Positions 1,119-29,936 of a stretch of 32,217 bases of DNA are shown one piece after another. The stretch comes from Erysipelotrichaceae bacterium (lineage in GTDB: Bacteria; Bacillota_I; Bacilli_A; RFN20; CAG-826). Within the stretch, counting starts at the first letter, position 1; every line of letters starts with the position of its first letter. The stretch spans positions 1-32,217 of the forward strand of contig JALFFX010000023.1 in assembly GCA_022777645.1 (NCBI GenBank). The letters are read 5' to 3'. The translations under genes and the position numbers were made by a program. The notes under the pieces were generated by a model that worked only from the letters and a program-made list of their open reading frames with translations, was not told the origin of the DNA and made no database searches.

Positions 1119-2147
1119 ATGAAAACAATTGCATTAATTATGGCAGGAGGGAAGGGAGAACGCTTCTATCCTGCAAGTCGTAATCTATTACCTAAACAGT
1201 TCTTATCACTCGGCGCTGATAACGAAACAATGATTCAAAAAACTGTCAATCGTATCCGCGATTTAGTGTATCCACAAGATATTTTTGTTTTAACAAATAA
1301 AAACTATCTATCATTAGTCAAAGAGCAATTAAAAGATGTGCCAACTGAAAACATCGTGCTTGAACCTCTTAGTAAAAACACTGCTCCTGCAATCGAACTT
1401 GGCGTTGAAATTGCTAAAAGAAAATATGATGATGCCAAAGTCATCGTTTTGCCAAGTGACCATATTATCAAAGATGAAGTTGAATTTCGCCGCATTTTAA
1501 AAATGGCAACACAATTTGTCGAAAATAAAGAATCAATTTTAACAATTGGTATTAAGCCAACAGAGCCAAATGATGGTTATGGATATATCAAAATAAGCGA
1601 CAGCCAAGAAATTAGCAAAGTTGCTGAATTCAAAGAAAAACCAACTATCGAAGTAGCGAAACAATATGTTGAAAGTGGTAATTATCTTTGGAATGCCGGT
1701 ATGTTTATTTTCACAATCAAAAGCATTGATAATGCCTTTAAAAAATATATGTCAAATCAACACAAGTTGCTGACAGAAAGTCTTGATAATTTTCCAAAAG
1801 TTGAATCTATTTCTATCGACTATGGAATCATGGAAAAAGCTGATAATGTTTATTGCATTAAAGGTGATTTCGCATGGGATGATGTCGGTTCCTGGAATGC
1901 GTTAAAACGCATTAATGGAGAAGATGAAAATCAAAACACTATTCTCAATGATAAAACTGTATTAGTAAACTCTACTAACGTAACTATTAAAGGGACAAAT
2001 AAAAAACTTATCACCGGTGTTGGATTAAAAGACATTGTAATCGTAGAAACAGATGATGTTATCTTAGTCGCTAATAAAAATGAATTAAGCGACATTAAAA
2101 AGCTAACTGCAAAAATAAAAGAAAAACAATTGGATGAGTATTTATAA
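1119..2147 (+). CDS. manC: Mannose-1-phosphate guanylyltransferase
   Basis: Converts mannose 1-phosphate and GTP to GDP-mannose and diphosphate, in the cytoplasm, supplying mannosyl units for surface glycans or glycolipids. The 342-residue length fits the catalytic nucleotidyltransferase domain alone, without the fused isomerase of bifunctional ManC/AlgA enzymes. The N-terminal nucleotide loop reads MAGGKGERFYPASR (8-21) followed by PKQFLSL; the family consensus is GGxGTRLWPLSR, so the T-R-L-W part is diverged to E-R-F-Y. Later family motifs are clear: LPSDH near 108, FKEKP near 174, WNAGMFIF near 192 and WDDVGSWNAL near 252. It is a single gene, convergent with the fructokinase and separated from it by a shared hairpin. 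No neighbouring gene for GDP-mannose use is seen. No SD is present at a usual distance. Confidence 0.9.
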   Translation: MKTIALIMAGGKGERFYPASRNLLPKQFLSLGADNETMIQKTVNRIRDLVYPQDIFVLTNKNYLSLVKEQLKDVPTENIVLEPLSKNTAPAIELGVEIAKRKYDDAKVIVLPSDHIIKDEVEFRRILKMATQFVENKESILTIGIKPTEPNDGYGYIKISDSQEISKVAEFKEKPTIEVAKQYVESGNYLWNAGMFIFTIKSIDNAFKKYMSNQHKLLTESLDNFPKVESISIDYGIMEKADNVYCIKGDFAWDDVGSWNALKRINGEDENQNTILNDKTVLVNSTNVTIKGTNKKLITGVGLKDIVIVETDDVILVANKNELSDIKKLTAKIKEKQLDEYL

Positions 2148-2151
2148 AATA

Positions 2152-2173
2152 ATGGGGCTTTGCCCCATTTTTT
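2152..2173. terminator. Bidirectional Rho-independent terminator
   Basis: Perfect 7-bp stem ATGGGGC (2152-2158) / GCCCCAT (2162-2168) with a TTT loop. It is followed on the plus strand by TTTTT and on the minus strand by TTATTTTAT. It lies between convergent manC and the fructokinase gene, whose stop codon (2172-2174) touches the hairpin flank, so it should end both transcripts. Confidence 0.9.
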
Positions 2174-3080
2174 AAATCTTAAATTTATTAATTTCTGCTT
2201 TGCTTGGAACAACACCAACCGCGCCTTTTTTAAGTGTTGCCATTGCTCCAACAAAATTTGCTTTTCTTAGTGCCTTATATATTTCTTTATCATCATTAAG
2301 ATTTAAGCCTTTATCAAGTTCATATAAGAAATATGAATAAAAAGCATCGCCTGCTCCTGTTGTATCAATAGGTTTGACTTCATTAGATGGCACTTTGATA
2401 ATCTTATTGTTATAAGAAAGCATTGATCCATTTTTACCTAAGGACACAACAACAATTTGATGAGGATTTGTTAATCTCTTAAGAGCAATTTCTAAATCAG
2501 ATTCATTTGCCAACAAACGTAATTCATCATCTGTAAATTTGATAATATCTGCTTTTGATAAACAGGTAATAAATATGTTTTTCGCAGTTTCTGTATCGGG
2601 AAAAATATCATCGCGATAATTTACATCAAACGAAATCAAATGTCCTTTATTTTTATAATATTCAAGGGCTTTGAAAAAGAAGTCAAATCCTTCTTTATAA
2701 GAAAGCATTAAGCTACCAATATGGACAATTACTTTGTTTGGCAATTTAATGTTTTCTATGGATGATAAAGAAAGATGATAATCTGCTCCATTATCACGAA
2801 TGAATGCGAATGATCTTTCTCCATCTTTTAATGTTACTTTTGCAATAGTGGTGTCTTTATCTTCTAATTCTTCAATATTTGAATTAAGGGAAATATTTGA
2901 AATGTATTGTTTTAAAAATGATCCATGTTCATCTTTTCCGATTGCACCGCAAAACAAGACATCTCCTCCAAATGAGGCGATATTTGCTGCAACATTAAAT
3001 GGTGCTCCGCCTGGAAAAACGGTTTCGGTTTTTCCATCATTAAATACATCGACTAATATTTCTCCAATAGATAAAATCAT
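2172..3080 (-). CDS. scrK: Fructokinase, PfkB family
   Basis: Phosphorylates fructose with ATP in the cytoplasm, the last step of the fructan path in this cluster. The 302-residue protein has the ribokinase/PfkB layout: N-terminal GEILVDVF (6-13), the first signature FPGGAPFNVAANIASFGGD (22-40) with GAIGKDEHG after it, and the C-terminal DTTGAGDAF (239-247) that holds the anion hole and catalytic Asp245. GGAPFNVA and the GEILVD start resemble bacterial fructokinases more than ribokinases, but the substrate is assigned mainly from its place downstream of the beta-fructosidase. The start is set by a GGAG eight bases upstream. It is the last gene of the cluster, separated from the previous gene by a 62-base gap that holds a 12-bp hairpin. 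Confidence 0.85.
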   Translation of the reverse strand: MILSIGEILVDVFNDGKTETVFPGGAPFNVAANIASFGGDVLFCGAIGKDEHGSFLKQYISNISLNSNIEELEDKDTTIAKVTLKDGERSFAFIRDNGADYHLSLSSIENIKLPNKVIVHIGSLMLSYKEGFDFFFKALEYYKNKGHLISFDVNYRDDIFPDTETAKNIFITCLSKADIIKFTDDELRLLANESDLEIALKRLTNPHQIVVVSLGKNGSMLSYNNKIIKVPSNEVKPIDTTGAGDAFYSYFLYELDKGLNLNDDKEIYKALRKANFVGAMATLKKGAVGVVPSKAEINKFKI

Positions 3081-3096
3081 ATGTTTAACTCCGCAA

Positions 3097-3132
3097 ATAT
3101 CACGAGCCGGAGGGATATTCGGCTCGTGATAT
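3097..3132 (-). promoter_or_regulatory. 12-bp intergenic hairpin before fructokinase
   Basis: Perfect inverted repeat ATATCACGAGCC (3097-3108) / GGCTCGTGATAT (3121-3132) with a 12-base loop. No T-run follows on the minus strand, so it is not a canonical terminator. The mRNA loop ends in CCCUCC, and CUCC is complementary to the GGAG ribosome-binding site at 3089-3092. It may protect or process the mRNA, or tune fructokinase translation. Confidence 0.6.
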
Positions 3133-3142
3133 CAAATATTAA

Positions 3143-5137
3143 TTAATAAACCTTTTTATGACGTTTAAAGGCAACGATGCCAATAACTGAAATAGCAAGG
3201 ACAGCAAGGAAGATGATGAGGATAACACTACTATTTGTGTTTTCAGCACCAAACATCATTGCAAATAAATTCAAGCCAGCAACTGAAACATTATAACTGC
3301 CAACAATGAAATTAACTGTTTGACCAACTGTGGTATGAATTCGAAGTGGCATTTTCGAAACTTCAGCGAGAACTTGTCCGTTTCCATCGGCAACATCACG
3401 AGTGTAATCTTCACTTAAATCAACAATCGTTTTTGCACCTTCGCTTAAAGCATTATATTTTGTGCCTAATTCAACTTTTTGGTCATTATTAATGACTCCA
3501 CAGAATGTGGAACCGACATTATTGTCTCTAAATGTGCTGTAATAATAGCTTAAGAATGAAGCAGCTTCGGCGTAAACTGATGTATCAGCTGTTGGAACAT
3601 CTCCGCCAATAAATGAAGGAGCGGCATCTGTATAAATAATATCGCCACTTGCAGTAGTAGCTGTTTTTGAAACATATTTATCAAGAACACGAGCGTATTT
3701 TTTATATTCTCTTCCTGCACATTCGTTATGAGTGACAAGATCAACTTTAAATGAAGGAGCAGTTGGATAATATGTGACTATTTCATCAAAGTTAGCTGCT
3801 CCCCAACCACCAGTTGAAACATCAGCTAAGCCGAGAACAATCTTTTTGCCTAAGAATGCTTCAAGATTAACAACATGGCGAACCATGGTGAGAATATATT
3901 TATCTTGTAAGTTGATATCTTCGTGAATAACACCATCAGCGCTAAATGTTTTAATATCAATGAATGCTAATTCTTGAAGGAAATTTGGACTTGTAGAATC
4001 ACCATTTAATACGTGAACAGAAGCACCTGCTTGGCTAGCTTTAAAGGAAATAAGACCTGTGCCACTTAATGTAAATGCTGGTGTTAATAAGCGATATACT
4101 GAATCATCACCTGCGATAAATCCACTGTATGGATATGAAGAATCATCTCCTTCATAGAATCCTTTAAAGAAATTATTGCCAGTTTTATTATATGGCATAT
4201 GAGCGCCGCCATTGCCTTCGTACCAAGAGCAAATAGCTTTGTCTAGATTTGCTGTTGCTTTAAGAGTGCCATATCGAGAATCATAAGCTAAGCGAGTTAA
4301 GCCATAACCATCTTCAAAATCTTCACCGACATCAGTTAATGTAAGACTTGTAAATGGGGTAAATTCTGCATTAGTGTTATAAAGATTGATGATGTGCGAT
4401 TTCGCAAGTTTATCTTTATCTGATTTTTCGGATAACATGTTCATGTGAACAGAAAGCGAACGAGCTACATCAGTTGCTGTTTGATTGGCGAGTAATGAAC
4501 CAATACACCAGAAACCAAATCCGCCAGTTGCATTATCTACGAATTCAAGCTTCATAGTAACGCCACTTGCAAGATCATCATCACTAATGGAGTCTGGAAG
4601 AGTAATTACTTTTTCGATAAAGTTACAAGAAACGAGCGGATCGTTAAAATTTGTGTTTGTGACACGGAAACTTTCAAATTCTTGACCAGCTTTTTTGGTA
4701 TAAACGTTGATGTAAGTTTCAACGTTCGCACCACCTGCAATTAAAACAGTGACATAACGTTTCTTTTGGACCCACTCTTTTGTTGTGATTGTGCCGGTCC
4801 AAACTTCTTTTCCAACATCATCTTCTCTTTCAAAACCGCGGAAGAAATAATCAGGTGCATTGAAATGTCTATCACCCCAAAATGTTGTAGTAATTGGATC
4901 AACTTTAAATGATGCACGTTTTGAACAGTCAACGACTTCTTCTGATCCAGCTGTTTTAAAAGTAAAGTTACCTTGAACATATGTTGGAATATATGTTGTA
5001 AGCTTTTCCGAAGAACGAGTTGATTCTTTGCTTACGGCTAATACTTCTTTACTGTTTGCCAGTTTAGCGGAAGAAGACATACCAGCAGGAACAAGAAGCC
5101 CTAAGCTAAAGAGAGAGAGGAAGAATTTTTTAAACAT
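3143..5137 (-). CDS. Secreted, C-terminally membrane-anchored protein with two lectin-like modules
   Basis: 664 residues. A signal peptide spans about 1-24 (FFLSLFSLGLLVPAGMSSSA, no lipobox cysteine), and a C-terminal membrane helix at about 637-656 is followed by KRHKKVY, so the body is displayed outside and tethered by the tail. Two beta-rich modules (about 80-215 and 280-458) are divergent relatives of the repeat in the lipoprotein at 6483-8963: compare LEFVDNATGGFGFWCIGSLL here with KVVDNATNNWGLICVDSF there, and VNLEAFLGKKIVLGLADV plus DEIVTYYPTAP. Residues 520-580 form a helical-looking module with one cysteine (TFCGV), resembling one in the left-edge protein. No catalytic motif is recognised. 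Position between the beta-fructosidase and fructokinase genes suggests binding of fructan at the cell surface. An AAAGGAG SD precedes the ATG. Confidence 0.75.
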   Translation of the reverse strand: MFKKFFLSLFSLGLLVPAGMSSSAKLANSKEVLAVSKESTRSSEKLTTYIPTYVQGNFTFKTAGSEEVVDCSKRASFKVDPITTTFWGDRHFNAPDYFFRGFEREDDVGKEVWTGTITTKEWVQKKRYVTVLIAGGANVETYINVYTKKAGQEFESFRVTNTNFNDPLVSCNFIEKVITLPDSISDDDLASGVTMKLEFVDNATGGFGFWCIGSLLANQTATDVARSLSVHMNMLSEKSDKDKLAKSHIINLYNTNAEFTPFTSLTLTDVGEDFEDGYGLTRLAYDSRYGTLKATANLDKAICSWYEGNGGAHMPYNKTGNNFFKGFYEGDDSSYPYSGFIAGDDSVYRLLTPAFTLSGTGLISFKASQAGASVHVLNGDSTSPNFLQELAFIDIKTFSADGVIHEDINLQDKYILTMVRHVVNLEAFLGKKIVLGLADVSTGGWGAANFDEIVTYYPTAPSFKVDLVTHNECAGREYKKYARVLDKYVSKTATTASGDIIYTDAAPSFIGGDVPTADTSVYAEAASFLSYYYSTFRDNNVGSTFCGVINNDQKVELGTKYNALSEGAKTIVDLSEDYTRDVADGNGQVLAEVSKMPLRIHTTVGQTVNFIVGSYNVSVAGLNLFAMMFGAENTNSSVILIIFLAVLAISVIGIVAFKRHKKVY

Positions 5138-5160: not shown

Positions 5161-5178
5161 TAAACCAAAAATGGTTTA
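5161..5178 (-). other. Small AT-rich intergenic hairpin
   Basis: TAAACCA (5161-5167) / TGGTTTA (5172-5178) with an AAAA loop, overlapping the stop codon of the beta-fructosidase gene. No T-run follows on the minus strand. It is perhaps a weak pause or an mRNA-stability element. Confidence 0.35.
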
Positions 5179-6432
5179 TTCCAAATTAATGCCTTTCACA
5201 CTGATACGATAACTATCACAATCTTGAATGTAGTTATCAATACCAGCGAAAGCTTCACCTTTATTAAATAAAAGTTCGATGATAGATTTGTCGATGCAAA
5301 CTTCTAAAGTGATACGACTTAAATCTTTTAGTTTGATTTGTTTTGAAGAAAGGATTTTTCCTTTTTCATTTTTTATTTCAACATCCATATCTTTTCTTAG
5401 TAAAGTGACAATACCTGTATTCTTTTCTAAGATGATTTTGATGTTTGATAAATTGATTTCAGCGATATCATCTGTTAAATAGCCTTCATATAAATAAGTA
5501 TTAGGATTATCAAGCAAGAAGTTAAAACGTAGATAATCGTTATGAATATGAAGGGTCTTAACAAGTGATAATACTCCAACATATCCTTCTTTTTCAGTTG
5601 GAGAATTAATACCCCAACTATGAAGCCATGAAATGTAGTAGTTGTGTTTGTCTTTGGTTAACGTGTGCGAAGCATAACCAACAAAACCTTGTTCTAATTC
5701 TTTTTCTTCGCCAGTGGGCACGAATATTCCTTTATCTAAATCGATATGACCAACTTGTGAACAAACGGTGAAATCTTTTTCGTAATTACTTGGATGTTGG
5801 AAAGAATAAATAAGACATGCTTTACCGTTTTCAAAGACAACATCAGGACATTCAACCATGCCATTTTCCACCATGTTGTTAAATGATTTTAAGACATTGA
5901 CAAATTCGTAATGAATTAAGTCTTTGCTCTTATATAACAAAATGGAAGAATAGCCATCTTTGTGGCGGGCCGCTAATAAGACATAATATGAATCGTTTTG
6001 GAAAATGATTTTTGGATCACGGAAATCTTTGACTAAATATCCATCAGGTAAATCATCTTCATCAATAACTGGATTGTATGGATATTTTTCAAAATTATAT
6101 CCATCTTTACTAACTGCTAAACATTGAACTTGTTTATCACCATTTGCCCCAGTATAAAGGACAAATAATTTATCATCTTTTACAATTGAAGAACCGCTGA
6201 AACAGCCAAATTCTTTATCATATGGAGCGCTTGGTTTTAAGGCGATGCCTTTTTCGGTCCAGTTATGCAAATCGCGACTGACAAAATGAAGCCAATGCAT
6301 TGGACCCCAGACAGTATCATATGGATTGTGTTGGGCGTATAAATGATATTCGCCATTAAAGAACACAAAACCATTTGGATCATTAATCCAGCCTTTCTTT
6401 GGTGTTATGTGATAATCAGGACGGTAACTCAT
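5176..6432 (-). CDS. scrB: Cytoplasmic GH32 beta-fructosidase (sucrose or fructo-oligosaccharide hydrolase)
   Basis: 418 residues with no signal peptide. It releases fructose (or fructose plus glucose or glucose 6-phosphate) from imported beta-fructosides. The GH32 catalytic triad is intact: WINDPNG (15-21, nucleophile Asp18), FRDP (137-140, transition-state stabiliser Asp139) and MVECP (192-196, acid/base Glu194). The C-terminal beta-sandwich is short, so the protein is smaller than typical ScrB (about 470-490). Import here is by an ABC transporter rather than a PTS, so unphosphorylated fructo-oligosaccharides are the more likely substrate and the sucrose-6-phosphate name should be used with care. 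It has its own operator (6436-6446) just before the ATG, and its SD (AAGAAAGGAA) overlaps that site, so it may be controlled separately from the genes before it. Confidence 0.92.
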   Translation of the reverse strand: MSYRPDYHITPKKGWINDPNGFVFFNGEYHLYAQHNPYDTVWGPMHWLHFVSRDLHNWTEKGIALKPSAPYDKEFGCFSGSSIVKDDKLFVLYTGANGDKQVQCLAVSKDGYNFEKYPYNPVIDEDDLPDGYLVKDFRDPKIIFQNDSYYVLLAARHKDGYSSILLYKSKDLIHYEFVNVLKSFNNMVENGMVECPDVVFENGKACLIYSFQHPSNYEKDFTVCSQVGHIDLDKGIFVPTGEEKELEQGFVGYASHTLTKDKHNYYISWLHSWGINSPTEKEGYVGVLSLVKTLHIHNDYLRFNFLLDNPNTYLYEGYLTDDIAEINLSNIKIILEKNTGIVTLLRKDMDVEIKNEKGKILSSKQIKLKDLSRITLEVCIDKSIIELLFNKGEAFAGIDNYIQDCDSYRISVKGINLE

Positions 6433-6482: not shown

Positions 6483-8963
6483 TTAATTGATATTTAATGC
6501 TAAAGTACCATTAGGTAAGTCAGCCTCATTTTGATAATATGTGATAATATTATCGACAAATAATAGACCCCAATCTGATGTCGCTTCATCGACAATTCTG
6601 ACCTTTAAGCTTGTATTTGCAAAACTACTAAGATCAATAATATATGTGGTCATATTTGCCATATAAATATTGTCTTTTGCAAGATCAATTGGGTTTCCAT
6701 TATAGAAATATCGTTTCGCCATTGCGTCATTAAATAATTGATTTTTCATTGCAAAAACCACATTATTTGTTGTTGCATCAACTAATTCTATTCTTGTTGA
6801 ATTGTTTTTAGCGCCACCTAAAGACACGCTCATTTTGTTGATACCACCAACGGTAAAGGCAGTGCTTTCTAAAACACCCGTTTTATTTTCTTGACCTGCC
6901 CATCCGCTAAGGAAATATGTGCCTTGATTATTAAAGGAATAATATTCATTCCACCAGACTTCGTCGTTAGCAAAACCGATAAAGTTAGCGTCGCCACTTG
7001 TCAATGTCCAACCAGTTAAATCACCAGTTTCAAAATCACCATTTAAAACTTGGTATTCGTTGTCATTTCCAAGAACTTCCCCTGGAAGAATATTTTTTGC
7101 ATCATAATATTGTTCTGGTAAACCTGCTTCACTTTGATAATATGTGATGAACGAATCAACACAAATAAGGCCCCAATTGTTTGTCGCATTATCAACAACT
7201 TTTAGATAAACTTCTTTGCCTGCGAATGCGCTTAAATCAGCAACATAGTTAACCATGTTCATCAAATTGGTGCCTTTGTTAATCAAGGCTAAATCACCAT
7301 CATGGAAATATGAATTGTAATATCTAGCAAGTTCAACATCATTACTCGCATCAAATAAAGCAACGTAGCAAAGACGTGGATCTTTTCCACCAGACATCTT
7401 AAAGCTCATCTTATTGATTCCACCAACTTGGAAATTGTTTGATTTAATATAACCAGTATTTCCTTCATTAGCTTCACCTGAGAAGTGATAGCTGCCGTTG
7501 CGGTTAAATGGGAACGATTCAATCCACCAACCAGTCTTATTTGTTACTTCGCCAATCTGTTTAGAAGCATCACTCCAAGAAGTTGTCCAACCAGTTAAAT
7601 CGCCAGTTTCAAAAGTACCATTTTTAACTTGATAAATGCTTTCAATTTCAATTTCACGATTAATTTTGTTTTTGGCGTCAAACCAAACGTCATTATAAAA
7701 TGTTGGTTTGTTTTCGTGATATGTCTTAATAGAATCAAGAGTGATACAGCTTAAATCTTCATTTGAAGTGTCATTATCAACAACTTCAATATACATTTTT
7801 TGACCAATATATTCCCTTAAATCAGCAACATATTGATTGAGATTTAAAAGTCTCATTCCATTTTCGACAAATGGGAATTGGAAATCGAGATATTCACTAT
7901 TGGTGAAGCGAGCTACTTCGGTTGAAGTATCACCATCAACTCTATAAAAGGAAAGATATGTCAAATCTTGATGCTTACAGCCACCTAATTTGAAAGTGAC
8001 ATAGCCACTTCCTGATAATGTGAATGTTGTACTTCGCATTTTCCCGGTCGCACTTGGATTATAAAATCCGTAGTGGTAATTTCCGTCACGAGAATAAGTA
8101 ATATTTTCGTTCCACCAAACATCTTCGGCGTTAACACCATCATGAGAAAAAGCTTGACCTTCTAAAACTTCCCAACCTGCTAAAGATCCGGTTTCAAAAT
8201 CTCCGTTTGCGATTTCAAATTCGCTTGGTGCAACAGCCTCTTCAATATAATCGCGGCTCTTAACGTAGAAAGTTCCTTCTTCTTGAGGAAGTTCTCCACC
8301 GATACGAATATCATCAACACTTATGTATCCATAATATACATCGGTATCGTTATCAACGATTTTGATATATAATTCTTCGCCTTTGTATTTGTGCAAATCT
8401 AAAATATAATCAACAAAATTATCGGTATTATAAACACCATTATCATATTTTGTTACATCAACATAACTTTCAGTGTGTTCAATGAAATAATCGTTATTTT
8501 GCATCGCAATCATTTGATCGTTTTTGGCAAGATAGACACCGACAAAACATCTTTTTTCTAAAGGTTTATATTCAGCATTTTCACCTTTTCCTTTTGTGAT
8601 TGCACCTCCAGCAATTTTCATCGATATTGTGCCGTCACCCGTCAAAGTAAAATTATTTGATTTTATAGCACCAACACGATTGACAGAGAAAGAATCATCA
8701 AATCCTTTTCCACTTAGATACCAATTGCCTTCTTTTTTGTTGCTGATTTCGTTTCCTTTGGCATCGTTTTTAAAGCGGAAAGAAGATGCAGAGGAAACCG
8801 CGTCATTATTAAAAGCATTGCCATAAACTACTTCCCAGCCTGATAAATCACTTGTTTCAAAACCACCATTGAATAATTTCTTAATTTGTGGTTTTTCATC
8901 GCTGCAACCGGAAAGTAAAACAAGAGAAGATAAAGTTAATAAAAATAAAGATTTTTTCATCAT
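6483..8963 (-). CDS. Lipoprotein built from four tandem putative carbohydrate-binding modules
   Basis: 826 residues. Signal peptide with lipobox LLSGC (lipidated Cys20). The rest is four copies of a 165-190 residue beta-rich module: residues 32-223, 253-418, 448-617 and 641-817, joined by 23-29 residue linkers. Each begins N-G-x-F-E-T-x-x-L-x-GW (NGDFETGDLTGW in copy 4), has a S-x-x-F-x-[VL]-x-G core strand and an aliphatic-DL-x-x-[FY] strand, and ends [IV]VD-[NE]-x-T-x-x-x-[WYL]-G followed by [VL]D-[SN/D]-I-x-TYY. The pattern fits jelly-roll lectin-like domains often attached to glycan-degrading enzymes; no catalytic residues are recognised. Its ATG overlaps the stop of the GH32-like lipoprotein gene (ATGATG), with GGAG nine bases upstream, implying coupled translation. 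Likely role: holding fructan at the cell surface. Substrate is inferred from context. Confidence 0.82.
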   Translation of the reverse strand: MMKKSLFLLTLSSLVLLSGCSDEKPQIKKLFNGGFETSDLSGWEVVYGNAFNNDAVSSASSFRFKNDAKGNEISNKKEGNWYLSGKGFDDSFSVNRVGAIKSNNFTLTGDGTISMKIAGGAITKGKGENAEYKPLEKRCFVGVYLAKNDQMIAMQNNDYFIEHTESYVDVTKYDNGVYNTDNFVDYILDLHKYKGEELYIKIVDNDTDVYYGYISVDDIRIGGELPQEEGTFYVKSRDYIEEAVAPSEFEIANGDFETGSLAGWEVLEGQAFSHDGVNAEDVWWNENITYSRDGNYHYGFYNPSATGKMRSTTFTLSGSGYVTFKLGGCKHQDLTYLSFYRVDGDTSTEVARFTNSEYLDFQFPFVENGMRLLNLNQYVADLREYIGQKMYIEVVDNDTSNEDLSCITLDSIKTYHENKPTFYNDVWFDAKNKINREIEIESIYQVKNGTFETGDLTGWTTSWSDASKQIGEVTNKTGWWIESFPFNRNGSYHFSGEANEGNTGYIKSNNFQVGGINKMSFKMSGGKDPRLCYVALFDASNDVELARYYNSYFHDGDLALINKGTNLMNMVNYVADLSAFAGKEVYLKVVDNATNNWGLICVDSFITYYQSEAGLPEQYYDAKNILPGEVLGNDNEYQVLNGDFETGDLTGWTLTSGDANFIGFANDEVWWNEYYSFNNQGTYFLSGWAGQENKTGVLESTAFTVGGINKMSVSLGGAKNNSTRIELVDATTNNVVFAMKNQLFNDAMAKRYFYNGNPIDLAKDNIYMANMTTYIIDLSSFANTSLKVRIVDEATSDWGLLFVDNIITYYQNEADLPNGTLALNIN
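6513..8870 (-). repeat. Four-copy protein-module repeat within the lipoprotein gene
   Basis: The DNA for the four modules spans 8870-8295, 8207-7710, 7622-7113 and 7043-6513. Copies 3 and 4 are closest (NGTFETGDLTGWT and NGDFETGDLTGWT; VGGINKMS in both). Copy 1 is the most diverged and carries an insertion near its middle. The copies are clear at protein level but visibly diverged at DNA level, so the amplification is old. Confidence 0.85.
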
Positions 8964-11443
8964 AACAAGTCTCCTAAATTACCAGAATTGCCATAATAAC
9001 TTGGTGTAACTTCATCAAAATAAGCACTCTTCATATTGATGACTTTTAATGAATTGACTTTTAATGAAGCGTTATTGTCAAAGAATGATAAATAATCACT
9101 ATCACCATAATGAGGATAAATTCTTGTTGTGAAAGTAATAATGTCATTGATATATACTTCCAAAGAAGAACGATCTAATAAAATGGTGACATCAAAGTTT
9201 CTTAAATCGGTATGATAAATTCTACTATCATTTCTTTCCACACTTGTAGTCGTGGTCGATAATAATCGGTCAATATAGAATGTATTATTTGTGAATTTTA
9301 AAGCTGTTTTTTCAGTTGCACCATTAACCGTGTGTTTGTTATATCTAACATTTAAGCCAGTTAAATATTCGCCGTTTCCTTCAAAAGAAATATTCATCTT
9401 AATTGTTAATGCATCACCGCGAACATCTTTAATCATGTCGTTTATTGCGTTAACATCTTTACCTTCACCACTATAATCGAATAAAACTTCATCATATAAT
9501 GATGTCATTTCTTTAATTGGCTCACGCAACAATGTTGAACCATCATCGCTTAAATATAAATCAACAGGCATTGCCAGAGAGTGAGCCCAACCACTTAAAA
9601 TATTTTGTTGAGTACCAGCTGCTTTTCCTTGAGTTAAGGCAAATAAGACAGTGCGACCATCTTCATAGTCTTTATCCATCTCATTTTCAGTGCGATAACA
9701 AAAACCAGTTTGACCAGTATAAATTCCGCTTCCTAAATCAAATAATTGCGGTTTGTCATTATCAGCAACAAAGCGATAATTTGCTTTATCAAAAGAACCA
9801 ACCCAATAATAACAATCAACAACAAAACCATCGACTGTATATTGAGGGCAATCAAATAAAACATATTTGGTTTTACTGCCATCTTTTGATGTGACTGGAA
9901 GGAGAATAACACATTCCCAGTGAGCACCTTGTTCTGGATATAAATCTAATGGACATTGGTAAATATAACCGCGATACAACCAATTTTTCATATCGACAGA
10001 TGTGTATAAATTGCCGCTTCCTCCTGCTCCAGGAATTGAAGTGGAAACAAGCATATAGTAAATGCCACTATCAAACCAAACAAACGGATCGCGGAATTGA
10101 TCGCGTTCACCTTGACTATTATCGCTTGGTTGAGTAATCACGACTTTATCTTCAACAACCCAATCAGTAAGATATGGATCATTTGGATCAACGCAGTGAG
10201 CGAAAGCCACATTTTGTCCAGACCATGTGCTTTGATTTGTACCAGCCGTAATAATTAACCATGGGGTTCCATCTGGGCCGATGACACTGCCACCTGTCCA
10301 CACACCTTCTGGACAAACTCCTTTTGTTGGAGCGACTGCATCTTTAACACTTACCCAATGAATCATATCAGTGCTTGCTAGATGTCCCCATCTAATTTGA
10401 CTCCAATATGGACCGATTGGATTGTGTTGATAGAAAAGATGATACATGCCTTTGTAATATATTGGGGCGTGAGGTTCATTCATCCACACCGCACTTGGAA
10501 GGCCGTGATATATTGGACGATATCTATCGCCTTCATATTGGGCGCGATCTTCTTTAACATTATCAAAATCAAGATTAGGATGCGCGCCATCAACTAAAAA
10601 GCTTGAATAATATTGTTTGATTTCTTTTGGTGATTTGCTAACTTTTGAAATCGACACTTCATCTAATAAACCAGCTGGAAGTTGTCTATCGCAAGCAAAT
10701 TCGATCATTGGCGATACATAATAACCAATGAATAAATCTTCACTCGAACGAATGATTTTTGTATTAACTAAATCAGGAATATATGCTTCGTAAGATATTT
10801 CACCATTGTACGCTAAAGCGATATATCCAGTTGCCCCATTAAATGTGGCAGCGATATGGTTCCATTTATAAAGTTCAAGAGAATTGATTGGATCATAAAA
10901 TCCAACAACGACATCATCACCTGTTTCCTCGTTATGAAGGGCCATTTGTAATCCCCATAAACCAAGACGACCGTAACCGAATAAGAATCCTTCACCAACT
11001 TCGATGTCACCTTGATTGATGATTGATGTCATTCTTGTATGACCAGCGGCCATTGACGAAGCATCATAATTGACGACATTTTCAAAACCTCGAGGCGCAA
11101 CCCAGGCTGAAAATGTGACAGCTTTATTTGGAACTATAAAATCTTTAAAAATCATCTTTGTTGAAAATCCATCCATATAAAGGGCGTCACCTTTTACCCC
11201 TTTTCTATAAATAGGATCACTTGGTTGCTTCAATAAATATTCTTCATTTTTTTCATTGAAAACATATTCAACATGCTTTTGACTTTTTGATACTGATTCG
11301 TAAGTGTATTCACCTTCGTGTTTATCGAAAGTCAGTTCTAATGCCGAATCTTCACTGACAGGTTTGTTATTATCAGTGACATTAGAACAACTAGAAATCA
11401 GAAGCATTGATGACATCAAGAATAATAATTTTGAAATTTTCAT
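8960..11443 (-). CDS. LamG plus GH32-like lipoprotein with altered nucleophile motif
   Basis: 827 residues. Lipobox LLISSC (Cys19). Residues 85-280 form a LamG/concanavalin-like domain (VTFSAWVAP, WNHIAATFNG, LLDEVSISKVSKSPKEI). Residues 310-680 form a GH32 five-blade propeller, followed by a GH32 C-terminal sandwich (DVTILLDRSSLEVYINDIIT). The RDP motif (FRDPF, 450-454) and the acid/base motif (HWECV, 508-512, Glu510) are kept. The nucleophile motif, normally W-M-N-D-P-N-G, reads WMNEPHA (320-326): Asp is replaced by Glu323, Asn by His and Gly by Ala, while flanking blades stay canonical (YHLFYQHNP, RWGHLASTDMIHW). It may be a modified hydrolase or transfructosylase, or a fructan-binding pseudoenzyme. 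Placed between the permeases and the repeat lipoprotein, it acts at the cell surface. Confidence 0.85.
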   Translation of the reverse strand: MKISKLLFLMSSMLLISSCSNVTDNNKPVSEDSALELTFDKHEGEYTYESVSKSQKHVEYVFNEKNEEYLLKQPSDPIYRKGVKGDALYMDGFSTKMIFKDFIVPNKAVTFSAWVAPRGFENVVNYDASSMAAGHTRMTSIINQGDIEVGEGFLFGYGRLGLWGLQMALHNEETGDDVVVGFYDPINSLELYKWNHIAATFNGATGYIALAYNGEISYEAYIPDLVNTKIIRSSEDLFIGYYVSPMIEFACDRQLPAGLLDEVSISKVSKSPKEIKQYYSSFLVDGAHPNLDFDNVKEDRAQYEGDRYRPIYHGLPSAVWMNEPHAPIYYKGMYHLFYQHNPIGPYWSQIRWGHLASTDMIHWVSVKDAVAPTKGVCPEGVWTGGSVIGPDGTPWLIITAGTNQSTWSGQNVAFAHCVDPNDPYLTDWVVEDKVVITQPSDNSQGERDQFRDPFVWFDSGIYYMLVSTSIPGAGGSGNLYTSVDMKNWLYRGYIYQCPLDLYPEQGAHWECVILLPVTSKDGSKTKYVLFDCPQYTVDGFVVDCYYWVGSFDKANYRFVADNDKPQLFDLGSGIYTGQTGFCYRTENEMDKDYEDGRTVLFALTQGKAAGTQQNILSGWAHSLAMPVDLYLSDDGSTLLREPIKEMTSLYDEVLFDYSGEGKDVNAINDMIKDVRGDALTIKMNISFEGNGEYLTGLNVRYNKHTVNGATEKTALKFTNNTFYIDRLLSTTTTSVERNDSRIYHTDLRNFDVTILLDRSSLEVYINDIITFTTRIYPHYGDSDYLSFFDNNASLKVNSLKVINMKSAYFDEVTPSYYGNSGNLGDLL

Positions 11444-11457
11444 GTCGCTTCTCCTTT

Positions 11458-12366
11458 TTATAATTTAAGACCGCCGCTAAATCCTTTGACGATATATTTT
11501 TGGGCTAGAACATATACGACAAAGATAGGGATAGATGTGGTTACAAGGCTAGCCATAATTTGACCAGTTGTAATACCTTCAATTGACTGAATTGTTGTTA
11601 AGGCCGCTTGAATAGGCATCAATGAATCATCATTTAATACCATTGTTGGCCAAAGGTAATCATTCCAAACACCGATGAAGCAAAATACTGCGACAGTAGC
11701 AATAATTGGTTTGGATAATGGAAGAATTACTTTAAAGAATATTTGAATAGTGTTTGCTCCATCCATTCGCGCTGCTTCTTCATAATCCTTTGGAATTGAT
11801 GAGAAAAATTGAATGAATAAGAAGATGTTAAAAATTGAAATTGTTTGTGGCAAAATGATTGCCAAAATAGATGCTGCTTGGCGTAATTGAAGCATTGTTT
11901 TGCAAATTGAATACAAAGGAATAATTGATGTTTCAACCGGCACGATTATCAAAAACATGATAATAAAATTGAAGAATTTTTTACCTGGGAATTTTAATTT
12001 GCATATCGCATATGCTGCCATTCCATTAATCAAAATATTTAAGATGATAACGATAATCGCATAAATAAAGCTATTGAGGGCATAACGGCCAACATTGTAG
12101 TCACCAAAAATAACTGCATAATTGTTGAGCCAACCACCAATATTTGAAAAATCAGGAAGGAACATCAAAAGTGTTCCGGCGTCATTTGCAATTCTTTCTT
12201 GCGACTTAGTTGAAGTAGCAATCATATAAAGAATTGGGAAAAGGAAAGCAAAAGAAAGACAAATGCCAAAAATGTAATAAATGACGTGGCCAACAGCTCT
12301 CTTGTTAGATTTTTTAACGACGACTACATCATCATTTTCAATGATTTCATTAATGTTTTTAGCCAT
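11458..12366 (-). CDS. ABC sugar permease, MalG type
   Basis: One of two membrane subunits of the cluster's CUT1-type importer. 302 residues from the chosen ATG at 12366, with a cytoplasmic N-terminus and about six membrane helices. The EAA loop that contacts the ATPase reads DYEEAARMDGANTIQIFFKV (194-213) followed by ILPLSKP. The reading frame extends 18 codons further upstream, but the start at 12366 has a GGGAGG eight bases before it and gives the usual length. With this start it overlaps the last 8 bases of the other permease gene, so the two are translationally coupled. It ends 14 bases before the GH32-like lipoprotein gene. Substrate, probably fructo-oligosaccharides, is inferred from the neighbours. 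Confidence 0.92.
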   Translation of the reverse strand: MAKNINEIIENDDVVVVKKSNKRAVGHVIYYIFGICLSFAFLFPILYMIATSTKSQERIANDAGTLLMFLPDFSNIGGWLNNYAVIFGDYNVGRYALNSFIYAIIVIILNILINGMAAYAICKLKFPGKKFFNFIIMFLIIVPVETSIIPLYSICKTMLQLRQAASILAIILPQTISIFNIFLFIQFFSSIPKDYEEAARMDGANTIQIFFKVILPLSKPIIATVAVFCFIGVWNDYLWPTMVLNDDSLMPIQAALTTIQSIEGITTGQIMASLVTTSIPIFVVYVLAQKYIVKGFSGGLKL

Positions 12367-13345
12367 TGTTTTTACCTCCCAAGAATTTGCGTTGTAATAA
12401 AGTGATTGTTCCAATAACAATTGTCATAATTAACGCGATTGCGGCACTATACCCAACATAATGTTTTGAATAACCTTCGTAATACATTAAATAGGAAAGG
12501 GTGACGCTGTTTTCTTGATATCCAACCATGAGCATTGGTTGAACCATGATTCGACACGCGCCAATAAATACTGTAATTGTGATGTATAAAAGCGTTGGTC
12601 TAAGACCAGGCAAAGTGACATGAAGAAATCTTTGCCAAGCATTGCAGCCATCAAGGCGAGCAGCTTCATAAAGGTCTTTTCTAATACCAGATAATGCACT
12701 TAAGAAAATAAGCATTTGATATCCGCATCCTTGCCATGCTGATATAATGACAATCCAAATTATTGTCATCTTTGGGTTGTTAATAAAGTCTTGAGGAGCA
12801 ACGCCAAATAATCCTAAAAATGAATTCAATAATCCGGTTTCGCTTGGCGATAAAATCTCAAGCCATAAATATGATGTAATTGTTAACGAGATAACAACTG
12901 GGGTAAAGAAACAAACTTTGAAGAAGAAATTGCCTTTAACTTTGACATTGCAAAACAAGGCAAGTCCAAGCGCCAAACCGATTTGGAGAGGAACAACAAG
13001 GACAACGAACAACAAAGTATTTTGAATAGCGTGAGATAACATGCCACCACTGGCGATATCTTTAAAGATTTTGACAAAATTATCAAAGCCATTAAAACTG
13101 ATTTGTTCTGGTTTAAGCAAATTATAATCAGTAAAACTATAAGCCAGAGAATATATGATAGGAAGTACAACAAAGAAGAACGCTAATACAATGGCAGGAA
13201 GCAAGAAAAGAAAGCTAGCTAACATTGGTTTGAAGCGATATTTTTGATTGTGCTTTTTCGCTCTGATAATATCGATGATAAAAACACCTAAGAAAATTAG
13301 AACAAAAGCAACAAATATTAATATGGCACTTAAAATTAAATCCAT
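12359..13345 (-). CDS. ABC sugar permease, MalF type
   Basis: Membrane partner of the MalG-type permease in the CUT1 importer. 328 residues, with an extra N-terminal helix (1-28) before the cytoplasmic RAKKHNQKYRFKP stretch and then about six transmembrane helices. The EAA loop is DLYEAARLDGCNAWQRFLHV (224-243) followed by TLPGLRP. Its ATG is five bases after the stop of the sugar-binding lipoprotein gene and has no clear SD, so translation probably depends on ribosomes finishing the upstream gene, which would also keep permease levels below those of the binding protein. Confidence 0.92.
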   Translation of the reverse strand: MDLILSAILIFVAFVLIFLGVFIIDIIRAKKHNQKYRFKPMLASFLFLLPAIVLAFFFVVLPIIYSLAYSFTDYNLLKPEQISFNGFDNFVKIFKDIASGGMLSHAIQNTLLFVVLVVPLQIGLALGLALFCNVKVKGNFFFKVCFFTPVVISLTITSYLWLEILSPSETGLLNSFLGLFGVAPQDFINNPKMTIIWIVIISAWQGCGYQMLIFLSALSGIRKDLYEAARLDGCNAWQRFLHVTLPGLRPTLLYITITVFIGACRIMVQPMLMVGYQENSVTLSYLMYYEGYSKHYVGYSAAIALIMTIVIGTITLLQRKFLGGKNNG

Positions 13346-13350
13346 GGGTC

Positions 13351-14637
13351 TTATTTATATTCGTTAAGTTCAGATTGTAAATTGGCTGTTTGTTGATTGA
13401 CAACTTCACGAACATTACCATCTTTGAGTTTGTAAATAATGTTTCTGAAGTTGGTTGAAAATTCTGGATAACCAACAGTTTCAGGACGAGCAATACCGGT
13501 TTGTTTTAATTGTTCAAACAAGACAGCTTCAGGTGAGTTAGCAGCATATTTTGGATCGCAGCTAAGGCGTGATGGAATCATACCAGTTGCATTTGTAACA
13601 GTGGTTGTTGATTCAGCTTTTGTTAAATATTTAATGAGTTTAATTGCATTGGTTTTATCTTGGATATGGTTATTTGTAACAGCGTATGACCAACTTCCAG
13701 TAGCCGAAGCACGATTGACATCTTTTGGATATGGAAGAAGACCCCATGAATCACGATTTGGGAACATCTCAGGATAATTGTTATCGAGTTCAGGAATTGT
13801 CCAACCACTTGAAAGATACATAGCGGCTTTACCAGTGACGAAATCGTTGTCACCTACTGAATAACTTGTGTAATTAGCATTAACTAAATCTTTGAAGAAT
13901 TGGAAACCTTTGATCGATGCTTCACTGTTGAGATAGCCTTCACATGTAAGACCATCTTTGCTTACAAATGAACCACCAGCAGCGTGAATAAATGGGTAAA
14001 GAAGATAAGTTGCAGTTTCATCTTTTGTCGCATTTAAACGCATATCAACTGGAGTTTTGCCAATTGCTAATAATTTTGCACAAGCAGCTTTAAATTCATC
14101 AAATGTCCATGGGTTTTCAACTGTGTAACCACTGACATCAATGCCAGCTTGAGCAAATAATGCTTTATTATAATAAAAACCAGCACTACTTTCTTGAATT
14201 GGAAGACCATAAATTCTTTCTTGATATGTATTAACAGAAATGAAATCGTCTAATTCTTCGCTTGTCATTTCATCTGTAATATCATGAAGCAAACCAGCTT
14301 CCGCATAGCTTGAGCAGTTTGGAGCGTCAAAAGTGATGACGTCTGCTAATGCATCGTCGAGTTTAGCGGAAATTAATTGAGCTTGATAGTCCGCACCACC
14401 TGCAGTTCTTGTTTTAAATGTGGCTGATGCTTTAATTTTTTCGGAAGCATATTCACGGTTAAAACCATCAACAAGTTTTTTATAAGCTATGCCTTCTTTT
14501 GATTTGCTATCAACGTGGAATAAGACTTTGACAATAGCGTTTCCTTCTTCGTCAACTTCTGCCTCTCCGTTTGTCGTATTACAAGATGCGAGTAAAAGAG
14601 GTAATAAGCCAAGGACTAATAATTTTGATTTTTTCAT
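13351..14637 (-). CDS. ABC sugar-binding lipoprotein
   Basis: Extracellular solute-binding protein, family 1 type (428 residues). Lipobox LLLASC with lipidated Cys19, then an acidic linker. The mature start VKVLFHVDSKSKEGIAYKKL and the later YGLPIQESSAGFYYNKALFA, GKAAMYLSSGWTIPEL and NAIKLIKYLTKAEST match the fold used for oligosaccharide capture by CUT1 importers. It delivers substrate to the two permeases encoded immediately after it and powered by the ATPase at 18812-20065. Its ATG overlaps the TGA stop of the LacI gene by four bases. Specificity cannot be read from sequence; fructo-oligosaccharide is the contextual guess. Confidence 0.92.
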   Translation of the reverse strand: MKKSKLLVLGLLPLLLASCNTTNGEAEVDEEGNAIVKVLFHVDSKSKEGIAYKKLVDGFNREYASEKIKASATFKTRTAGGADYQAQLISAKLDDALADVITFDAPNCSSYAEAGLLHDITDEMTSEELDDFISVNTYQERIYGLPIQESSAGFYYNKALFAQAGIDVSGYTVENPWTFDEFKAACAKLLAIGKTPVDMRLNATKDETATYLLYPFIHAAGGSFVSKDGLTCEGYLNSEASIKGFQFFKDLVNANYTSYSVGDNDFVTGKAAMYLSSGWTIPELDNNYPEMFPNRDSWGLLPYPKDVNRASATGSWSYAVTNNHIQDKTNAIKLIKYLTKAESTTTVTNATGMIPSRLSCDPKYAANSPEAVLFEQLKQTGIARPETVGYPEFSTNFRNIIYKLKDGNVREVVNQQTANLQSELNEYK

Positions 14638-15596
14638 AATGTTGTTTCTCCTTTGATAAATGTTGTATTAAATATTTGTTTTTTATTAACCTCTTCGCCT
14701 TTTATCAATTTGGTAAGAGTGAGAAATGAGGCGATTGCCATTTCTTTAATTGGTTGTTGAATGGCAGTCAGCATTTCAGTTCCGAAGAATAAACCATCGT
14801 AACTAACTAGTTGAACATCATTTGGAATAGCCCTCTTGCGATTTAGCAGTTCCTTATAGATTGCAACAGATAATGAATATCCCGATGCAAAGATTGCATC
14901 AAAATCTTTATATTTTTCAAAGAATTGAGCGACCATTTCACTTTCACCACCATGACCGACTACTTCGAATAAATCAAGTGTTGGTAGACCATGTTTTTTA
15001 ACGAAATCAACATATGCTTGATATCGCAAATTGACTTCACTATCGACACATGGCTTTGAACCGATGAAGGCAATTTTTCTTGCGCCGCTTGCAAATAGTT
15101 TTTCAAGAGCGTTCATCGTTGCGTCGTAATTATCACTTGTAATCAACGGAATATCATTTCCAAGATGACGATCGATGCTAACAAGTGGACAACCTTTTAA
15201 TTTATTTTCATCGTGGCTATAGTGGGTGACGAATATTGCTCCATCAACACGATGAGATTTAATCATGTTGATAATTTCTTTTTCTTTATCAATATTATTT
15301 TGGCTTGTCACAAGAAGGAGAGAATAATTATTGTCCATGCTCACCTTTTCAAGTTCTTCAACAAACTCAGCGAAGAATGGATGATAAATAACCGGAACAA
15401 GGACGGCAATGACTTGGCTGTGTTTTTGTTTTAATCTCGCGCCATTGACGTTTGGGATATAATCAAGTTCTTTAATTACATCTAAGATTTTTTGCCGAGT
15501 TTTATCACTGACAGATTTATCATTTGATAAAACGCGTGATACAGTTCCAACGCCATAACCAGATGCTTTAGCAATATCTTTAATTGTTGTTTTCAT
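14634..15596 (-). CDS. LacI-family transcriptional repressor of the fructan locus
   Basis: 320 residues. The N-terminal LacI helix-turn-helix and hinge are clear: TTIKDIAKASGYGVGTVSRV (3-22), LSNDKSVSDKTRQKIL and LDYIPN. Residues 60-320 are a periplasmic-binding-protein-like effector domain (VIAVLVPVIYHPFFAEFVEE, DGAIFVTHY, LVSYDGL). The gene sits inside the operon it probably controls: its ATG lies within the last 17 bases of the levanase gene, after an AAGGGG SD, and its TGA overlaps the binding-protein ATG. The palindromes at 20087-20166 and 6436-6446 are the obvious targets. Such placement would give negative autoregulation. The effector is unknown; fructose, a fructose phosphate or an oligosaccharide would fit. 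Confidence 0.92.
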   Translation of the reverse strand: MKTTIKDIAKASGYGVGTVSRVLSNDKSVSDKTRQKILDVIKELDYIPNVNGARLKQKHSQVIAVLVPVIYHPFFAEFVEELEKVSMDNNYSLLLVTSQNNIDKEKEIINMIKSHRVDGAIFVTHYSHDENKLKGCPLVSIDRHLGNDIPLITSDNYDATMNALEKLFASGARKIAFIGSKPCVDSEVNLRYQAYVDFVKKHGLPTLDLFEVVGHGGESEMVAQFFEKYKDFDAIFASGYSLSVAIYKELLNRKRAIPNDVQLVSYDGLFFGTEMLTAIQQPIKEMAIASFLTLTKLIKGEEVNKKQIFNTTFIKGETTL

Positions 15597-18811: not shown

Positions 18812-20065
18812 TTACCCTAAGATTGTTTCTTCGCTTTCCGCATCGAACATATGAACATGTTCTTCATCAAAATTAATGACAACATCATCATTAACTTTAA
18901 GAGTTGTGTTTCCTAAAATGGAAATGATTGTATCTTTATCTGCACCTTCTAAATTCGCGTATACTTGTGTTGTTGAACCAAGGATTTCACTCATCGTGAC
19001 TTTCATGACAATACCAGTTTTTGAGACTTTTAAATGTTCGGCACGAACGCCAACTTTAATCGCGTGCGCCAAACCATCTTTATATTGATCATACAAAGAA
19101 GGTAATTTATTCAAATCTAAAGAAAGCGTTTGTCCATCAACAAAAGTCAATTTGGCTTTCTTGGAATCACAAATTAATGAAGCATCAAAGAAATTCATTT
19201 GAGGAGTGCCAATAAATCCGGCAACAAACAAATTCTTTGGATGATTGAATAATTCCACAGGAGTGTCAATTTGTTGGGTAACGCCATCTTTCATAACAAC
19301 GATTCTTGTTCCCATTGTCATCGCTTCGACTTGGTCGTGAGTGACATAAATAAATGTTGTTCCAAGACGTTGTTGAAGTTTAACAATTTCACTTCTCATC
19401 GATGTTCTTAATTTAGCATCAAGATTTGATAATGGTTCATCAAGAAGGAATAGTTTTGGTCCGCGAACAATGGCTCTTCCTAAAGCGACACGTTGACATT
19501 GACCACCACTCATCTCACCTGGTTTGCGATTGAGCAATTGTTGAATACCTAAAACTGAGGCCGCCCATTGAACCTTTTCATCAATTTCTTTTTTGTTGTG
19601 ATGGCGAAGTTCTAAAACCTCTTCTCCATTTTCATCTAAAACATGATTTCCATCTTTATCAATTTTTGGCAACATTGCTTTTCTAATTTTTAAACCAAAA
19701 GCAATATTGTCATATGCTGATAAATGAGGATATAAGGCATAACTTTGGAAAACCATTGCCATATCACGATCCATTGGATCAACATTGTTGAGCAATTGAT
19801 CATCCATATATAATTCGCCAGCAGATATATCTTCAAGTCCCGCGATCATTCTCAATGTAGTTGATTTTCCACATCCAGAAGGACCGACAAAAACAATGAA
19901 TTCGCCTTCACCAATTTCGAGATTGAAATCTTTAACAGCAACAAAATCTTGATTAGTGTGAGCTTGTTCTCTTGCTTTTTTAGAAAATAAACGTTTAAAA
20001 AACGATGGTCCTTTATCGCGAGACGGATAGACCTTGTAAACGTGACGTAAAGAAAGGTTTGCCAT
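18812..20065 (-). CDS. msmK: Sugar ABC transporter ATPase, MsmK/UgpC type
   Basis: Cytoplasmic ATPase that drives CUT1 sugar importers; first gene of the fructan transcript. 417 residues. Walker A GPSGCGKST (61-69), Q-loop FQSYALYPHL, signature MSGGQCQR (185-192, cysteine where most relatives have arginine), Walker B LFLLDEP (205-211), D-loop SNLDAKLR and switch His243 are all present. A C-terminal OB-like regulatory domain follows (FIGTPQMNFFDA, VGVRAEH). Two insertions are notable: a basic stretch at about 16-39 (FFKRLFSKKAREQAH) and an acidic one at about 132-160 before the signature. ATPases of this class can be shared among several importers; here one is encoded with its permeases. SD AGAGGT eight bases before the ATG. 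Confidence 0.95.
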   Translation of the reverse strand: MANLSLRHVYKVYPSRDKGPSFFKRLFSKKAREQAHTNQDFVAVKDFNLEIGEGEFIVFVGPSGCGKSTTLRMIAGLEDISAGELYMDDQLLNNVDPMDRDMAMVFQSYALYPHLSAYDNIAFGLKIRKAMLPKIDKDGNHVLDENGEEVLELRHHNKKEIDEKVQWAASVLGIQQLLNRKPGEMSGGQCQRVALGRAIVRGPKLFLLDEPLSNLDAKLRTSMRSEIVKLQQRLGTTFIYVTHDQVEAMTMGTRIVVMKDGVTQQIDTPVELFNHPKNLFVAGFIGTPQMNFFDASLICDSKKAKLTFVDGQTLSLDLNKLPSLYDQYKDGLAHAIKVGVRAEHLKVSKTGIVMKVTMSEILGSTTQVYANLEGADKDTIISILGNTTLKVNDDVVINFDEEHVHMFDAESEETILG

Positions 20066-23345: not shown

Positions 23346-23362
23346 ATTCGTTTTTCCTCCTA

Positions 23363-25105: not shown

Positions 25106-25132
25106 GTGTTTTCCTCCTATTTATTATTAACT

Positions 25133-26455: not shown

Positions 26456-26457
26456 GA

Positions 26458-29058: not shown

Positions 29059-29070
29059 GATTTTTCCTTT

Positions 29071-29877
29071 CTATTTTCCGGATTGGAAGACATCGCGATA
29101 TTCAAGCGAAATTGGTGAGAACATATTAAGAAGAATGTCTTCGCCAGCACCGGCATCAATATAAACAAAGGCTGTATCAGCAGTGCGAGAAATAAAGAAA
29201 TAAAGTGGATTGGTTTGACTTCCTTCATTTTTGCTAACAACACTGACGGAATACATAAACATGTCCCATTCCTCATTGAAGGTTGGATTGGTAACATCAA
29301 AGACAATATTCATATTTTTTTCGGTGTCATCGCTTCCGCTTACTTGCCATCTGAATGAGTCTTGATAATCAACACATGACAAGCGGTGATTTCCATAATA
29401 TGAAATGCCACCATATGTGTCGTAATCAAATGCAGCTTTAGCAACTGATTCAGCTGTATGAGCGGTGCGAACGCGAATGAGAAAACGGAAATGGAGATAT
29501 TCTTGGCTGTCATAAACCTTTAAGATTGAATTGCCAGGATTATGAGTTACAAATTTGTAATTATTTCCGCTTAGATGTGTGATTGTTAATGCGTCTTGGT
29601 TGCTTGAAACAACACGAATATTCGCATCATCGTTTGGAGCGCTATAAGTAAAACTATATTCGCTTCCACTAGCAAGATTTCTTTCCAAGAAGACAATATC
29701 TTCTAATACACCAGAGTATGTTCCACTGGTGATTTCATCTGCTTTTGCAAGATTGACTTGCGAGTCGTAATCGACATCCCCATTAGAAGAGGTTTTATTA
29801 GGATTACAAGATGCAAGAGTAAACATTGAGATCAAAGGAAGAAAAATTATTGCTTTTTTAATTTTTGAAATATTCAA
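29071..29877 (-). CDS. Lipoprotein of unknown function with TTG start
   Basis: 268 residues from the chosen start. The frame has no ATG near its beginning. The TTG at 29875-29877 lies nine bases after AAAGGAG, whereas the TTG three codons earlier abuts the SD, so the later one is preferred. Signal peptide and lipobox FTLASC follow. The mature part is beta-rich (EYSFTYSAPNDDANIRVVSS, NNYKFVTHNPGNSILKVYDS, a BIG-like pattern) and contains DYDTYGGISYYGNHRLSCVD. It is the first gene of the five-gene operon, 12 bases before the next. The weak start codon may limit its dose relative to its partners. Function unknown. Confidence 0.75.
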   Translation of the reverse strand: MNISKIKKAIIFLPLISMFTLASCNPNKTSSNGDVDYDSQVNLAKADEITSGTYSGVLEDIVFLERNLASGSEYSFTYSAPNDDANIRVVSSNQDALTITHLSGNNYKFVTHNPGNSILKVYDSQEYLHFRFLIRVRTAHTAESVAKAAFDYDTYGGISYYGNHRLSCVDYQDSFRWQVSGSDDTEKNMNIVFDVTNPTFNEEWDMFMYSVSVVSKNEGSQTNPLYFFISRTADTAFVYIDAGAGEDILLNMFSPISLEYRDVFQSGK

Positions 29878-29936
29878 AATAATCAACTCCTTTCAACTTT
29901 TAACACATATTTTAATGAAAAATAGCAAAAAGCAAA

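Follow-up and report, generated by a model that had tools for sequence, protein, structure and literature searches.

The motif WMNEPH, in which a glutamate stands where invertases, exo-inulinases and levanases carry the aspartate nucleophile, marks, as judged from a tree of GH32 domains, a large and ancient clade in Bacteria and Archaea, and the Asp-to-Glu swap is not the curiosity of a single enzyme. The three replacements in the motif (Asp to Glu, Asn to His and Gly to Ala) are ancestral to this clade and did not arise in the genome in which we met them. The member studied here is encoded in a window of 32,217 nucleotides (the whole stretch of DNA analysed) from an Erysipelotrichaceae bacterium. 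We regard it as likely that the protein is an active, retaining GH32 fructanase of the cell surface with Glu323 as its nucleophile, most likely endo-acting and probably directed at inulin-type fructan.

The Glu-type GH32 gene and its cluster

Table 1. Features of the window, with positions counted from its first nucleotide.
Feature	Position	Strand	Evidence or remark
GH32 enzyme, Glu type	8960..11443	minus	827-aa lipoprotein, LamG-like + GH32; ORF and Pfam domains
LamG-like domain (Laminin_G_3), residues 99-276	10616..11149	minus	Pfam PF13385, 31.8 bits
GH32 N-terminal propeller domain, residues 313-642	9518..10507	minus	PF00251, 186 bits (cut-off 22.1)
WMNEPHA motif, residues 320-326	10466..10486	minus	Glu323 codon at 10475-10477
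RDP, residues 451-453	10085..10093	minus	Asp452, putative transition-state stabiliser
Glu510, putative acid/base	9914..9916	minus	within HWECVI
GH32 C-terminal beta-sandwich domain, residues 668-801	9041..9442	minus	PF08244, 64 bits (cut-off 21.9)
Four-repeat CBM-like lipoprotein, 826 aa	6483..8963	minus	repeats, repeat model, structural matches; adjoins the enzyme in the closest relatives
GH32, Asp type (WINDPNG), 418 aa, without signal peptide	5176..6432	minus	probable intracellular beta-fructosidase
Surface protein, 664 aa, C-terminal membrane anchor	3143..5137	minus	without Pfam match; kept in several relatives
PfkB-family sugar kinase, probable fructokinase	2172..3080	minus	PF00294
ABC sugar permease	11458..12420	minus	PF00528
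ABC sugar permease	12359..13345	minus	PF00528
Solute-binding lipoprotein of the importer	13351..14637	minus	PF13416, PF01547
LacI-family regulator	14634..15596	minus	PF00356
Secreted, membrane-anchored GH32, Asp type (WNNDPNG), 1075 aa	15580..18807	minus	
MsmK/MalK-type ABC ATPase	18812..20065	minus	PF00005, PF17912, PF08402

Translation of the open reading frame confirmed what a preliminary description of the sequence had noticed, namely that WMNEPHA, starting at residue 320, takes the place of WMNDPNG; FRDP starts at residue 450 and WEC at residue 509. The plus strand opposite the gene is interrupted by many stops and has no open frame. A sequencing or frame artefact was ruled out: the frame of the gene is open, and 25 homologues in other genomes share the motif. 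One locus (L016), in which the gene looked split in two, has undetermined bases at the break, which is an assembly gap. The N-terminus carries the lipobox LLISSC, whose Cys is invariant in 19 homologues, and the enzyme is predicted to be anchored by lipid at the cell surface.

Both GH32 Pfam domains exceed their curated cut-offs, which places the protein in GH32. The carboxylate triad of the family (W-x-N-[D/E]-P, RD and the acid/base Glu) is present as E323, D452 and E510, with Glu counted as a valid nucleophile residue because the endo-inulinase INU2 is a GH32 enzyme. The protein is not of the Asp type, since it reads WMNEPHA and sits outside the Asp-type rows of the tree described below. 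The preliminary description had also called the RDP and E-C acid/base motifs intact; RDP and EC are indeed there, although our enzyme has ECVI where the canonical sequence is ECPD.

An AF2 model built from 19 sequences (pLDDT 82.4) has the propeller and beta-sandwich fold, and its best structural matches are GH32 enzymes, with Z scores of 29-39. The scores were Z 39.0 for the Thermotoga maritima invertase (426 residues aligned, rmsd 2.6) and Z 37.0 for INU2 (463 aligned, rmsd 2.8), and since such scores are alike for exo- and endo-acting GH32 enzymes, the fold match does not separate the subtypes. Because residues 316-320, directly before the motif, are poorly predicted, the model was not read for side-chain geometry.

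The order LacI regulator, solute-binding protein, two permeases, Glu-type enzyme and CBM-like lipoprotein is common to the 25 closest relatives found in a genome scan, the few gaps being contig ends; many of these relatives are ruminant-gut MAGs. Among the same-genus genomes searched, the enzyme was found only in the source genome and one other (G145). By contrast, relatives with 58-60% identity and an unchanged gene order occur in MAGs labelled Clostridia. This patchy occurrence, together with the Clostridia relatives, suggests that the operon has moved as a block. Beside the fructan cluster, the minus strand of 20742-29886 holds five genes for secreted proteins or lipoproteins, one with a Big_2 domain and four without a Pfam match above cut-off.

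The lipoprotein next to the enzyme consists of four repeats with the consensus NGxFETGDLTGW..., without a Pfam match. A single repeat was modelled as a CBM-like beta-sandwich (pLDDT 90.6). Most of the structures that matched it best were CBMs (a porphyran-binding CBM, Z 12.0; CBM61, 11.2; CBM16, 10.8), with MAM domains and others scoring nearly as high. Fusions of this repeat to Glu-type GH32 domains occur in many phyla, among others in Paenibacillus, Halobacillus and Streptomyces. In some loci (L058, L059, L060, L067, L080 and L109), single chains of 1.8-2.4 thousand residues combine an Asp-type GH32 domain (WMNDPNG or WLNDPNG) and a Glu-type GH32 domain (WMNEPHA/G), and the CBM-like repeats lie between the two. 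From the model and the fusions, the repeat is probably a fructan-binding module and the 826-residue lipoprotein a fructan-binding partner of the enzyme. The repeat may be an undescribed CBM or may correspond to one already known to bind fructan, such as CBM38.

Occurrence of the WMNEPH motif

When the proteins of 196 genomes from the same order were searched without use of the motif, 26 homologues from other genomes aligned over both the LamG-like and the GH32 domains, and 25 of them carry WMNEPHA or WMNEPHS. The exception (L030, 28% identity) reads WVSDTNG, keeps RDP and has WEV at the acid/base position. Its gene (1396-3750 of its own locus, plus strand) encodes a full-length LamG and GH32 protein in the same family of bacteria, with Thr for the Gln of FYQ. 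L030 appears to be a diverged relative with Asp that either lies outside the clade or has reverted, and it is a candidate for true loss of function.

A scan of GTDB genomes yielded at least 575 relatives of the protein, and the best 78 of these loci come from Bacillota, Actinomycetota, Pseudomonadota, Bacteroidota and Chloroflexota. WMNEPH was one of the two patterns used in the scan, and the uniformity of the motif among the scan loci is therefore partly built in; the same-order protein search is free of this bias. The WMNEPH pattern has a single match in the source genome and occurs exactly in 10 of 392 genomes of the phylum, against none for the reversed control pattern. The motif is thus far above chance expectation.

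The tree was computed from 113 non-redundant GH32 domains after the motif columns had been taken out. A single branch (SH-aLRT 96) set off all 55 Glu-type rows, and 53 of them formed a core clade (SH-aLRT 100). The tree requires one change between the Asp and Glu types, compared with a mean of about 38 when the labels were shuffled. The preliminary description had proposed a search for further WMNEPHA proteins; they form one clade on this motif-free tree, and the motif is not unique to the source genome, which the description had named as a refutation of its view.

The archaeal members include WMNEPHA and WMNEPHG proteins on a Haloterrigena plasmid. On haloarchaeal plasmids (L139 and L140), the Haloterrigena genes share a cluster with those for an ABC transporter, a TrmB regulator and a sugar kinase, and in Natronorubrum a GH32 gene adjoins a GH68 gene. 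A Paenibacillus subgroup (L063-L066, L068, L070, L082, L085 and L093) reads WMNEAHA, so that the Pro following the nucleophile, invariant elsewhere, is Ala. A search of one open-access library returned neither activity data on, nor a description of, WMNEPH[AS] proteins, and on this basis the clade appears to be uncharacterised as such.

Active site and proposed function

E323, D452 and E510 are each invariant in all 53 rows of the core clade. The preliminary description had argued for selection rather than decay, and this is well supported because WMNEPH marks a clade and the three carboxylates do not vary within it. A recent loss of function in the source genome is ruled out, the motif being clade-wide. 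The description had also stated that everything except the three motif residues was retained, which proved wrong. From the Asp type to the Glu type we observed, besides N325H and G326A, the consistent shifts L327P, M350I, F382W, L394P, Y576T, A577G and G621H. Most of the Glu-type clade has Val or Ile at residue 513, the Asp of ECPD; W603 becomes Ile or Leu, and residue 511 is Leu in most of the clade, with Cys kept in the subclade of our enzyme. The active site of the Glu type has been reworked as a unit. We considered Trp335 of the exo-inulinase or Trp334 of KcINU1 as the equivalent of residue 603 but did not adopt this, because the paper on that Trp puts it in a WQY region.

In the mechanism that we propose, the CBM-like lipoprotein would help to hold the fructan polymer at the surface, where the enzyme would cut it in a double displacement; Glu323 would serve as nucleophile, Asp452 as transition-state stabiliser and Glu510 as acid/base. 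Internal cuts would release oligosaccharides that the ABC importer could take up, and inside the cell the WINDPNG enzyme would cleave them and the PfkB kinase phosphorylate the product. The nucleophile role of Glu323 in this particular protein is assigned by analogy. The weakest steps are the endo mode and the preference for inulin, both inferred from the endo-inulinases EnIA and INU2, inulin over levan being a guess from these two enzymes. Against an endo-inulinase stands residue 511, at which the Val that is a named endo-inulinase feature is Cys in our enzyme.

The same catalytic machinery could instead be exo-acting or levan-specific, taking fructose or short fructans off the ends of the chain or cleaving beta-2,6 levan. 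Cys511 is the form found in exo-enzymes, the conserved Trp at 603 is lost with an altered pocket, and the fold search scores exo- and endo-enzymes alike. We nevertheless hold this reading to be unlikely, given that the known Glu-type enzymes are endo-inulinases and that exo activity could already come from the two Asp-type GH32 proteins encoded in this cluster.

It is comparably doubtful that WMNEPH[AS] proteins of bacteria and haloarchaea are a distinct, uncharacterised GH32 subfamily whose Glu/His/Ala site and reworked pocket would carry out a reaction that nobody has attributed to this subfamily so far, such as a cyclising or difructose-forming transfer or cleavage with a new linkage specificity.

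More improbable is a fructan transferase that would cleave inulin and pass the chain to its own end, giving cyclic inulo-oligosaccharides, or to an acceptor. The changed site could favour transfer. The cycloinulo-oligosaccharide fructanotransferases (CFTases) of Paenibacillus are GH32 enzymes that act on inulin and carry beta-sandwich binding modules (PMC10076258; PMC4835578). WMNEPHA proteins are numerous in Paenibacillus, and several belong to the length class of 1.1-1.4 thousand residues and have binding repeats. Our enzyme, however, has no fused binding repeats, and the ABC importer and intracellular GH32 enzyme of its operon fit breakdown to linear oligosaccharides. That the protein only binds fructan at the surface as a pseudoenzyme is very improbable: the LamG-like domain, the lipoprotein signal and the CBM-like partner fit binding, but no catalytic carboxylate is missing, binding alone would not need all three to be invariant over very distant organisms, and a separate binding lipoprotein is already present.

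The altered functions listed in the preliminary description are thus mostly unsupported. There is no need to postulate a slow hydrolase, a lyase or a protein that only binds, because Glu is the assigned or mutagenised nucleophile in active INU2 and EnIA; transfructosylation, for example of the cyclising kind, may still occur in part of the clade.

The motif could help to recognise probable endo-fructanases among the many proteins whose present name is just 'GH32 C-terminal domain-containing protein', and to locate operons for fructan breakdown in Bacilli and Clostridia of the gut. The Glu and Asp types are natural clades that share a fold and occur even in one chain, and a Glu-to-Asp change in our enzyme would cleanly probe the effect of nucleophile length.

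Comparison with known systems

The T. maritima beta-fructosidase (PDB 1UYP, 1W2T) resembles our enzyme in fold (Z 39.0), RDP and the acid/base Glu. It differs in having an Asp nucleophile and an Asp-type pocket, and it is exo-acting. The endo-levanase BT1760 of Bacteroides thetaiotaomicron is, like the expected role of our enzyme, a GH32 endo-fructanase at the surface of a gut bacterium, but it has an Asp nucleophile (GFVGDPMP) and a structural Z of only 29. The levan fructotransferase of PDB entry 4FFF, a GH32 enzyme, has a similar fold (Z 36) and Asp54 as nucleophile, at which position our enzyme has Glu323. The CFTase of Paenibacillus macerans (GH32 with CBM38) shares the family and acts on inulin with beta-sandwich modules (PMC10076258), whereas its cyclising transfer departs from the role expected here.

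The closest parallels are endo-inulinases. INU2 of Aspergillus ficuum (PDB 3RWK, 3SC7) has RDP and reads YWMNEPNG, as we checked in the PDB chain sequence, with Glu43 named as nucleophile (PMC5245892). Unlike our enzyme, it retains NG after NEP and lacks a LamG domain, and the Val that replaces Cys after the acid/base Glu in the fungal type is Cys511 here and Leu in most of the clade. Against a profile of the clade, INU2 (compared by profile score only) reached 138 bits and Asp-type plant invertases 203 bits; because INU2 scores below these invertases, its own Asp-to-Glu change is probably independent.

The Glu of WMNEPNG is given a key role in endo-inulinases by a review (PMC5984348). In EnIA of Arthrobacter sp. 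S37 (gene of 2439 bp, about 812 residues), E323A and E519A lower kcat with Km unchanged, and D460A is inactive (PMC5984348). EnIA carries Glu at the nucleophile position under the same number, 323, is similar in length to our enzyme (812 versus 827 residues) and likewise has about 300 residues before the GH32 domain; it differs in being actinobacterial and secreted and in its reported WMNEPNG-like motif, which is garbled in the review. The residues reported for EnIA are N322, E323, Q339, D460 and E519 (PMC7545266; PMC5984348). A Promicromonospora protein (L121; LamG and GH32, WTNEPHG, in the sister branch of the core clade), to which residues 32-777 of our enzyme align at 25% identity (E 4e-45), has E313, Q329, D450 and E509 when started at MTEHQD, each exactly 10 below its EnIA counterpart, and a length of 800 residues versus about 812. 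WMNEPNG itself, looked for as a sign of EnIA relatives, had no match in the order to which the Promicromonospora record belongs (396 genomes). Because of the constant offset at the four sites, a comparison of residue numbers and not of sequence, EnIA would lie inside or beside the Glu-type clade and is probably its biochemically studied sister. Glu at the GH32 nucleophile position is thus an established feature of endo-inulinases, and our protein is probably a working surface enzyme that degrades plant fructans in a gut bacterium and not a new kind of catalyst; the phenomenon is known in kind, and what may be new is the size of the WMNEPHA clade and its span across Bacteria and Archaea.
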